IMG/VR virus record: IMGVR_UViG_3300031951_000599
Location: 1 to 35,791 of that record
Length of the DNA stretch: 35,791 nucleotides
Source of the DNA: a virus
Strand: one strand, 5' to 3'
Shown: positions 21,351-32,233 of the stretch, one piece after another
Layout: each line of letters starts with the position of its first letter
Numbering within the stretch: the stretch's first letter is position 1
The notes under the pieces: generated by a model
Seen by the model: the letters and a program-made list of their open reading frames with translations, nothing else
Told to the model about the DNA's origin: nothing
Database searches by the model: none
Translations under genes and position numbers: made by a program

Positions 21351-21610
21351 GCCTCACCCCGTTCGCGTATAGCGTCTGCTAATGTTTCAACAGCAGCTAG
21401 TTCATAGAATTCCTGCAACTGAGCGTGTTCGTCTGCTTGCTCATCGCACACCTTCGCGCATTCCTCGCGCTCTGATGCTGCAATTTCTAGGAACTTTTTT
21501 GCAACGTGTTTCCGCAACAATTCCATGTCAGCTTTACTTTTTCTGTCGTAATGATTTGCCCAATAATCTGCAGACATCCACGCCATACGGATAATGTCAT
21601 CTCTGGTCAC
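21347..21610 (-). CDS. Small conserved phage protein (REECAKVCDEQ type)
   Basis: An 87-residue protein starting GTG at 21610, overlapping the small terminase gene by 14 bases. The order DDIIRMAWMSADYW, then AASEREECAKVCDEQADEH, then ETLADAIRERGEA, is a pattern I recognise from many phage proteins of unknown function. Two cysteines flank the AKV turn. No role can be assigned. Confidence 0.7.
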   Translation of the reverse strand: MTRDDIIRMAWMSADYWANHYDRKSKADMELLRKHVAKKFLEIAASEREECAKVCDEQADEHAQLQEFYELAAVETLADAIRERGEA

Positions 21611-22040
21611 TGATTTCCTCTGCGTCTATGACTTCCGGCGCCTTAACATTAATGCCAATGACGCTGGGTTTATCGGACTCCTCGGCAGTATCCAGCAGCC
21701 CCGAGGCTTTGGCTAAGATTCTCAGTACACCCACTTTGTCGTACAGTTCTATGTCCAGAGTCCGCACACAACCGCCTTCTTTGTCGTAGCGCTCGTTGAC
21801 TTTGATGGACTTAATGGCTTGCAGTGCGTGTTCAGGGATGTCTTTACTGGCTTTAACTTGTATATTGCCTTGGGTATCCCACTCCATGATGTCGGTGAGC
21901 TTGGTATTAGCAATAGTCAGCAGGGCATAGGCGACAGCTTCCCTGTTCTTGGCGATAGTTGTGGAGCCTCCAAGTCGTTCTTGGACTTTACGGACTCCAC
22001 CCCAGTGTTTAATTGACGGTATTTGTTTGGTAACTGACAT
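21597..22040 (-). CDS. terS: Small terminase subunit (probable)
   Basis: A 147-residue protein ahead of the large terminase. The region AVAYALLTIANTKLTDIMEW and the later IKVNERYDKEGGCVRTLDIELYDK, then VLRILAKASGLLD, match the DNA-binding plus oligomerisation helices of small terminase proteins of the Terminase_2 type. The C-terminal tail is probably disordered. The start ATG at 22040 overlaps the previous stop (TAATG). Expected role: recognising phage DNA for packaging. Confidence 0.75.
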   Translation of the reverse strand: MSVTKQIPSIKHWGGVRKVQERLGGSTTIAKNREAVAYALLTIANTKLTDIMEWDTQGNIQVKASKDIPEHALQAIKSIKVNERYDKEGGCVRTLDIELYDKVGVLRILAKASGLLDTAEESDKPSVIGINVKAPEVIDAEEISDQR

Positions 22041-22759
22041 TACAGTGAGACATCAGACATCATTGATCTGCCCATTTGTTTTTTGCTGCTTATGACAATT
22101 TTCTTCCCCGGCTTAATCTTTTGTATTTCTTCAATATGATCGCTGCCCATAACGTAAACACCGCTGTCTTGGTTGGCAACAAACATCTGTCTTTGAGAGT
22201 TGGCTTTCTTTGCCATCTTCCCTGCCTTATTGGGGTAATCTTCCCAATCTTCATCAGGCCACATCAGTTCTTCACCAGCAGACAGGAACTTCTCAACATT
22301 TGCCTGAGTAGCCTTTTCTTTAGCCATTTCCACAAAGTCGGCATCTGATTCGCTAATCCCACGCAAAAACTTAATTAGCGTGTCAGAGGTAAACCGTTTA
22401 TTTTTAAAGAACCCAATCTTGTCTTGCGCTTTTAACGCCATTTGTATAATGGTTTTACTCGGCGAGACCAAGTGTTTCTTTTGGTTATTTTCTTCTGTGT
22501 TGGTGAATATGGTGTACAGGAACTCAGGTGGGTATCCTTTTACTTGTTTTGCAAATAGTTCATCCCATGATCCACGATAAGCGGACTTGGGTATTTCCTT
22601 GATGGCAGAGATATCCCCGCCGTTGCCTTCGTAGTAAGCACCATGCTGGCTGGCAATCTCCATTAACCGTTTAGCATCTGACCGAGACAAGCTGACGCTT
22701 TCGCCATGCTCAATGCCGACGTATGCCTTTTTGCCATTAACGAAGATTGCCTTGTCCAT
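22040..22759 (-). CDS. Unknown protein upstream of the small terminase
   Basis: A 239-residue, Lys-rich protein starting at the ATG at 22759, two bases after the stop of the Cys-rich microprotein. The N-terminal ~50 residues look like a small alpha/beta unit (MDKAIFVNGKKAYVGIEHGE). The middle is helical (KTIIQMALKAQDKIGFFKNK) and the end is basic (KPGKKIVISSKKQMGRS). I recognise no family and no catalytic motif. Its position suggests a packaging accessory or a DNA-binding protein, but this is a guess. Confidence 0.7.
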   Translation of the reverse strand: MDKAIFVNGKKAYVGIEHGESVSLSRSDAKRLMEIASQHGAYYEGNGGDISAIKEIPKSAYRGSWDELFAKQVKGYPPEFLYTIFTNTEENNQKKHLVSPSKTIIQMALKAQDKIGFFKNKRFTSDTLIKFLRGISESDADFVEMAKEKATQANVEKFLSAGEELMWPDEDWEDYPNKAGKMAKKANSQRQMFVANQDSGVYVMGSDHIEEIQKIKPGKKIVISSKKQMGRSMMSDVSL

Positions 22760-22761
22760 AA

Positions 22762-22908
22762 TCAATTACAAGTGGTATTACAGTTACCAGCATAGCAGCA
22801 GGTGGTGCAGTAGACACAACCATTAGGGCCACAGTAGCTGTTGTATGTGCAGGCTGCGTAGCTCATAGTTGCGGTAGCTGCTAGCCAGAGGGCGATGAGA
22901 TATTTCAT
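22762..22908 (-). CDS. Cys-rich exported microprotein
   Basis: A 48-residue protein with AAGGAG five bases before its ATG at 22908. The first ~19 residues form a signal peptide (MKYLIALWLAATATMSYAA, cleavage near AYAA/YAA-C). The mature part of only 29 residues has eight cysteines (C20, C26, C31, C34, C37, C38, C43, C47), with NGCVYCTTCCYAGNC at its core. It would be exported and either disulphide-bonded or metal-binding. It lies between the SSB-like gene and an unknown gene. No family is known to me; the reading is seen directly in the sequence. Confidence 0.7.
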   Translation of the reverse strand: MKYLIALWLAATATMSYAACTYNSYCGPNGCVYCTTCCYAGNCNTTCN

Positions 22909-23018
22909 ATGGCTCCTTTTTAGGATTATTAGTCGGGTACTCGCTGCACTGTGGCTGGCAGTTATCTAGATTCCAGCTACCCATTTCACAGGATCCGCTT
23001 TCCCCGGAGAACAATATA

Positions 23019-23306
23019 TCACCAAGGGATGTCGTCATCCATATTATCTTTTTTATCGTTAGGCATATATCCATTGCCTTTATCTATCGCGTGCTGGGTA
23101 GGTTCTGCTGGCACCATCTTCCCTAGACGTACCGAGTAAAACAGATCCCCGTTCTTCGTCTTCTTCTCCCATGCCGACAGGTAGAACAACTGACCATTTA
23201 ACTTCATCTTCCCAGACCAGTCCGGGCTATTCTCATTCTTCTTCTTATTTAAAAACAAATTACCATTGTCATCTTGCAACTCATATGGCTTATTACCGTA
23301 GTTCAT
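23019..23306 (-). CDS. Single-stranded DNA-binding-like protein
   Basis: I chose the ATG at 23306 (95 residues) because GGAGAG lies just upstream; a TTG four codons earlier is possible. The protein has the compact beta pattern of small OB-fold phage proteins: NYGNKPYELQDDNGNLFLNK, then MKLNGQLFYLSAWEKKTKNG, then LFYSVRLGKMV. It ends in an acidic tail DNMDDDIPW that mimics the DDDIPF tip of bacterial SSB, used to recruit partner proteins. The ssDNA-binding role is inferred from this tail and fold pattern. Confidence 0.6.
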   Translation of the reverse strand: MNYGNKPYELQDDNGNLFLNKKKNENSPDWSGKMKLNGQLFYLSAWEKKTKNGDLFYSVRLGKMVPAEPTQHAIDKGNGYMPNDKKDNMDDDIPW

Positions 23307-23339
23307 GTGGCTCTCCAAAGAGATTACTAAAAGTTATTT

Positions 23340-31387: not shown

Positions 31388-31610
31388 TCCTCCCCCCTTT
31401 GTCTTCCTTCGATTCTGTCGTTACCTTGCCACCATTGATCCACGGTTCCATGCGTTTCTGGTCTGCAAAGATATGGTCAGGGCAAGTCTGGTTTACCTCA
31501 CAGACTGGCTTCTGACATTCCTTACTCATCCAGTTGTCAGGGTTCTGGCAAGGGTATCGGTAACTCTGCTCACACCCAGCCAGCGCCAGCAGGATAAGCA
31601 GTCGGCTCAT
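31371..31610 (-). CDS. Small lipoprotein in the lysis cassette
   Basis: A 79-residue protein starting MSRLLILLALAGCEQSYRYP with a lipobox (LALAGC, Cys13 as lipidation site). The mature part has five more cysteines (PCQNPDNWMSKECQKPVCEV, NQTCPDH and a C-terminal NDCAK). Its ATG overlaps the endolysin stop. It may act in lysis or superinfection exclusion; no family is assigned. Confidence 0.7.
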   Translation of the reverse strand: MSRLLILLALAGCEQSYRYPCQNPDNWMSKECQKPVCEVNQTCPDHIFADQKRMEPWINGGKVTTESKEDKGGRNDCAK

Positions 31611-32233
31611 CAGTGGCCTCCCATTACATGGAGTGCATGGTTGTAGTGCTTGATCCTATCCTCCAGACCAATGTAGCCACCGTTGATCCTGCGTGTCAGT
31701 TCCTTGATGTCGCCACTGTCAGCCCACTTGTTCAGGTTGTTCGTCTCCCAGAACCAGCAGGCAGACTGAGCCGCACCCTCAAAGGTAGCCAGATACTCAG
31801 GCACATCATTGATGTTCATCTCCAGACTGTCAGCAAATGCTTGATAGTTATTACGTCCGGTAAGTTGGATAAGACCACGACCACAGAAACGCCAGCCATC
31901 GCCACTAGACTCGTCACCATTACCCATACGATTTGCGTAGGCACGGTTCGCAATAGCCGCTTGCTTGTTGAGCTTTGTTGCGTAGTCATTAGCGATTGCA
32001 TCTGTCGGGAAATACTTGGGGAAAATTTTACGGAGGGTGGCAGGCTTGTAGTTCAGGTTTTCTTTCAGTACCATGAAGCCACCAGATTCATGAGCGCACT
32101 GTGCAACGAAGGCAGCTATTCGGCGGGGAGTATTGATGTCGTAGTCGGGTAGCAGTTGGGTCAGCGCTTCATGCCAGTCAGCTACATACGGATTCTTCGG
32201 TAGCATCTGCTTCAGTTGGTTCAGTGTCAGCAT
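31610..32233 (-). CDS. Endolysin, GH19 (chitinase-like) family
   Basis: A 207-residue peptidoglycan-cleaving enzyme. Catalytic Glu49 lies in FVAQCAHESGGF and the second acid (Glu108) is likely in GNGDESSGDGWRFCGRG, followed by LIQLTGRNNYQAF, all signatures of GH19 phage lysozymes. No signal peptide is seen, so release depends on a holin. The start ATG at 32233 overlaps the previous stop (TAATG). Confidence 0.95.
   Translation of the reverse strand: MLTLNQLKQMLPKNPYVADWHEALTQLLPDYDINTPRRIAAFVAQCAHESGGFMVLKENLNYKPATLRKIFPKYFPTDAIANDYATKLNKQAAIANRAYANRMGNGDESSGDGWRFCGRGLIQLTGRNNYQAFADSLEMNINDVPEYLATFEGAAQSACWFWETNNLNKWADSGDIKELTRRINGGYIGLEDRIKHYNHALHVMGGH

Follow-up and report, generated by a model that had tools for sequence, protein, structure and literature searches.

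How does a phage come to carry, between its replication and packaging genes, a short reading frame packed with cysteines, and what could its product do? The question arises in a podovirus-like phage genome record of 35,791 nucleotides (IMG/VR record IMGVR_UViG_3300031951_000599, positions 1 to 35,791), the whole stretch of DNA that we analysed and here call the window. Its other genes include those for an internal virion protein, a phrog_376 tail protein, a portal-like head-tail adaptor, RecE/RecT-like proteins and an endolysin. In the direction of minus-strand transcription, a gene for an SSB-like protein ending in DDDIPW (23019..23318; phrog_18154, E 4e-10) is followed by an RNA element, the microprotein gene (22762..22908), a 240-residue open reading frame (22040..22765), the small terminase subunit gene TerS (21597..22040; Terminase_2, just under the Pfam cut-off) and, further down, TerL. 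The initial annotation, made from the window's sequence, was therefore right about the location. The 240-residue frame, with relatives in only two near-identical contigs, is an insertion that separates the microprotein gene from TerS and lies outside the conserved unit; in close relatives TerS follows the microprotein gene.

The microprotein gene, its cysteines and predicted fold

The initial annotation named no strand; the frame lies on the minus strand, from an ATG at 22908 down to 22762, with 48 codons before its stop codon (MKYLIALWLAATATMSYAACTYNSYCGPNGCVYCTTCCYAGNCNTTCN). A Shine-Dalgarno sequence, AAAAAGGAG (AGGAG at 22913..22917, minus strand), is placed four nucleotides before the ATG, which bears out the strong ribosome site described earlier; nearly all relatives have similar sites. 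Residues 1–18 (MKYLIALWLAATATMSYA; 22855..22908, minus strand) form a predicted signal peptide. By inspection and by a tally of 152 members, it has the features of Sec export, namely a basic start, a hydrophobic core and an AXA-type site, and a signal peptide with such a site occurs in nearly all of these 152 distinct proteins. The junction between SYA and the next Ala is a likely signal peptidase I site, judging by its sequence, and cleavage there would leave a mature part of 30 residues (22765..22854, minus strand) with eight cysteines, or of 29 residues if counted from the first cysteine. A lipoprotein reading fits poorly: a full lipobox fits in none of the 152 members, and the residue three before the first cysteine is Tyr or Trp in nearly all of them, being aromatic or Ala and never Leu, Val or Ile. 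No open reading frame of at least 40 codons with eight cysteines in its last 30 residues occurred in 40 first-order shuffles of the window; in the real window, one further stop-to-stop frame passes the same filter besides the microprotein frame.

Six cysteines are invariant in the 152 distinct full-length proteins, with the spacing C-13-C-2-CC-4-C-3-C, and the stretches between them change in length by single residues only, in the two predicted turns. The search patterns themselves account for part of the cysteine conservation in CTTCC; they did not select for the outer cysteines. The remaining two, Cys26 and Cys31, are both present in 71 proteins and both absent from 81, and no protein has one alone; the number of cysteines is even in every member. 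On a tree built without the columns for Cys26 and Cys31, the switch between six and eight cysteines requires at least two changes, so the gain or loss of these residues as a pair is supportive, from few events. The loss of the frame or of its cysteines was looked for in relatives, and both the frame and the cysteine pattern recur, with a median dN/dS of about 0.1 and synonymous changes at the codons of all six invariant cysteines. The gene is real, and the selection acting on its product is purifying.

AlphaFold2, with 128 mature sequences as input, predicts the mature part as a three-stranded antiparallel sheet (residues 2–9, 12–21 and 24–29 of the mature part), with a pLDDT of 91 and a pTM of 0.42. 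The program models no disulphides, and the pairing given here is our reading of the strand register, which is set by two tight turns such that the numbers of paired residues add up to 21 and 45. The predicted pairs are Cys2-Cys19, Cys8-Cys13, Cys16-Cys29 and Cys20-Cys25 (in full-length numbering Cys20-Cys37, Cys26-Cys31, Cys34-Cys47 and Cys38-Cys43), giving four cross-strand disulphides with no cysteine left over. The variable pair Cys8-Cys13 closes the first hairpin, as expected, and the register thus fits the paired gain and loss. By the same arithmetic, the conserved Thr3, Thr18 and Thr27 lie in one row across the sheet. A second structure prediction, of a full-length relative, gave a signal helix at residues 3–18 and strands that agree with the model of the mature part. 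Foldseek found no significant match in the PDB. The protein is short enough to be synthesised, and its disulphide pairing can be tested.

Eight cysteines in 30 residues, together with a CxxCC motif, might also suit a metal- or redox-active thiol protein, and the product had indeed been described as metal-binding-like. This fits poorly with a predicted register that pairs every cysteine, with two cysteines that come and go together and with the oxidising periplasm, and we regard it as very improbable.

An unnamed family in an exchange slot

Relatives of the microprotein in IMG/VR numbered 84 in a first scan, at least 120 by DNA pattern, 386 in an alignment scan and at least 579 in a second alignment scan (among 600 matches listed). 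The signal peptide and the cysteine pattern recur in these 579 or more stretches, which supports the earlier description of an exported cysteine-rich microprotein and corrects the impression of an oddity of a single phage. Sequenced phages are a different matter: two of 50,697 phage records contain the gene (MW202462 and MW202544). Both are from Manatee Spring and both have 34,712 bases, and they are perhaps the same phage; in both the microprotein gene is unannotated and an overlapping reading frame is annotated instead. Among 84,980 genomes there was a single match, on a MAG contig of 33 kb, about the size of a phage. A search of the PLSDB plasmids with one representative gave no match, and no tyrosine integrase was found in 25 longer contigs with the family. 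We rejected an integrated prophage gene on these last three counts. The scarcity in phage records and genomes and the lack of an integrase therefore point to phages that are mostly uncultured and apparently non-integrating.

For the microprotein, Pfam, NCBIfam, PHROG and PADLOC gave no match above threshold, and PDB sequences gave no match. Hundreds of uncultured phages carry this large family, which is strongly conserved and has as yet no name. In 2022 Fremin, Bhatt and Kyrpides described families of small, unnamed phage genes in the thousands, as cited in PMC11323111; going by that citation, these too are small genes that comparison brought to light, broadly of the kind seen here, and the microprotein family may be among them. 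Presence in at least 579 viral stretches and near-absence from 50,697 sequenced phage records illustrate how annotation pipelines miss such families. In five loci (L137:1406, L140:7770, L156, L170 and L034:66), divergent tandem paralogues lie directly upstream of the canonical copy.

Across phages, the gene that most often adjoins the microprotein gene on its upstream side is an SSB-like one. Of 13 informative loci with a TerL at least 89% identical, 12 have the microprotein gene; of 36 with a TerL at most 84% identical, none has it. In relatives without the gene, the gap between the SSB-like gene and TerS is as short as 24–39 bp, or is filled by a methyltransferase gene. The microprotein gene is therefore accessory, the cargo of an exchange slot that lies between the genes for the SSB-like protein and the small terminase subunit. 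The phages that carry it differ in their tail genes, the window's tail family being common to four of 26 phages with the microprotein. Comparing close relatives with and without the gene offers a natural way into what uncultured phages export to the periplasm.

Other genes were seen in the same place. In two of the relatives without the microprotein (L364:1514 and L366:739), the slot holds a cytosine-methyltransferase-like gene. A second, unrelated family of exported cysteine-containing microproteins, 41–42 residues long and with the pattern CPxGxxYxC...GKxxCGC, occupies the slot before the RNA element in other phages (L505:4888, L446:990 and L458:6484 on the plus strand; L417 and L450 on the minus strand); one member, searched against phage records, had no match. 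An unrelated slot-neighbour family matched phrog_1586 (spackle) with an E of 0.07 over its first 29 residues only, mostly signal peptide. Promoter and terminator scans gave matches no more numerous than in shuffled sequence.

A possible function at the host envelope

The microprotein probably acts in the host periplasm, given its putative signal peptide. A neutral product with predicted export and an accessory gene in the replication region, far from the lysis gene, together argue for an envelope-directed function. There are precedents. Spackle (gp61.3) of phage T4, a small protein encoded by an early gene, has a periplasmic signal that is cleaved off, contains a disulphide and acts in superinfection exclusion (PMC7677548); Llp of T5 and Cor of T1 and phi80, also small and exported, have a disulphide within the molecule and work from the periplasmic side on a receptor in the outer membrane (PMC9586334). 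Phage proteins that are small, exported and disulphide-bonded are thus able to block superinfection (PMC7677548, PMC9586334). The likeness is one of general design: Spackle is a 75-residue alpha-helical bundle with one disulphide, whereas the microprotein is predicted to be all-beta, and neither phrog_1586, the Spackle family, nor any other PHROG or Pfam family matched it. Llp and Cor are lipoproteins, whereas the microprotein family lacks a lipobox, and no sequence relation to them was found.

By analogy with these proteins, the reading we prefer, tentatively and at less than even odds, is a periplasmic protein that blocks superinfection by binding to a component of the envelope or to an incoming phage's injection machinery. 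The gene would be transcribed in the run of genes leading from replication into packaging, and could be expressed late. Its product would leave the cytoplasm through the Sec pathway and lose its signal peptide to signal peptidase I; oxidation in the periplasm would then give a flat beta sheet of three strands, linked by four disulphides between strands, or by three in other members. The sheet would then bind its target, and superinfection would be blocked as with T4 Spackle or T5 Llp; this step and the target are what we infer. We counted in favour of exclusion that the slot holds the second exported family in other phages, that the 25 contigs lack a tyrosine integrase, and that the endolysin gene (31610-32233) is about 9 kb away from the microprotein gene. 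Against it, the microprotein has no relation in sequence or fold to any known exclusion protein in PHROGs, Pfam, NCBIfam, PADLOC or the PDB. The initial annotation had proposed action in the periplasm, on superinfection or on the envelope; the periplasmic part stands as probable and the rest as the best functional guess. That the family is a new class of exclusion or envelope factor, a 30-residue disulphide-ladder sheet in an exchange slot shared with alternative exported cysteine microproteins and adjoining a new structured RNA, is a more doubtful proposition.

Close behind exclusion we rank a factor for host takeover, itself somewhat unlikely, which would bind a periplasmic or outer-membrane protein of the host and tune the host for phage growth, rather than act on a second phage; envelope stress, wall synthesis and the disulphide machinery are suggested targets. 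A predicted exported product, an accessory gene in the replication region beside an SSB-like one and a place outside the lysis region all suit such a factor, but they suit exclusion as well, and sequence does not separate the two. T4 RI inhibits lysis from the periplasmic side. A similar effect of the microprotein on the timing or inhibition of lysis, through the holin or endolysin, would agree with the predicted periplasmic destination and with the lack of an integrase; it is improbable, however, with the endolysin gene so distant and the microprotein gene beside replication genes in most phages.

A product resembling toxins or defensins had also been proposed, and a peptide freed at lysis could harm competing cells or help the progeny outside. 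Small size, many cysteines and secretion are shared with defensins and other cationic cysteine-rich peptides, and stable secreted peptides are usually small and rich in disulphides. Unlike the cationic peptides, the microprotein is neutral, with a predicted all-beta meander and pairing between neighbouring strands. In each of the 152 members the mature part has a net charge of 0 or +1; scarcely any Lys or Glu occurs in these sequences, which are rich in Thr, Asn and Tyr, and no immunity gene was recognised beside the microprotein gene. A cationic defensin thus fits poorly, with no clear positive charge in any of the 152 members, and a released peptide of any kind seems to us slightly less probable even than a role in lysis. 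Exclusion remains the reading we prefer.

A structured RNA element beside the slot

Between the SSB-like and microprotein genes lies a conserved structured RNA element (22932..23008, minus strand; GGGGAAAGCGGAUCCUG...CAGUGCAGCGAGUACCC). Its outer stem is formed around GAAAGCGGAUGCYG...CAGACGCAGCGAGUA and encloses a variable inner hairpin; the core contains a possible loop-E motif. When the core sequence alone was searched for, 79 distinct elements were found; every one of them has an outer stem of 3 bp or more, compared with 44% for swapped flanks. In an alignment of 61 rows, each of the six outer pairs varies at both of its positions, and the covariation is 0.319, against 0.089 when shuffled (reached in 0 of 500) and at most 0.085 when slid. 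Support for the element is comparative; the single-sequence folding energy of the window's copy alone is not significant (z −0.78). No Rfam family matches it at the gathering threshold, and when this region of the window was scanned permissively, the only matches were to microRNAs and due to chance.

At least 120 contig stretches in IMG/VR contain the element, typically some 9–14 nucleotides past a stop codon, often that of an SSB-like gene. It was at first suggested to be a dedicated partner of the microprotein. We rejected this as a sampling effect because a scan made independently of the microprotein put 104 of 116 elements in loci without the microprotein gene, and 10 within 60 nucleotides of it. 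The element is a separate candidate family of structured RNA.

Further conserved inverted repeats, AACACGCATGAGGATTGG ... CAGTCCTCAGTCGTGTTGGTG, were observed in a long stretch that separates the microprotein gene from TerS in close relatives (L137:1880-2110). This stretch may be a further structured RNA or else a packaging site, and similar inverted-repeat stretches lie downstream of the microprotein gene in loci L029 and L100.
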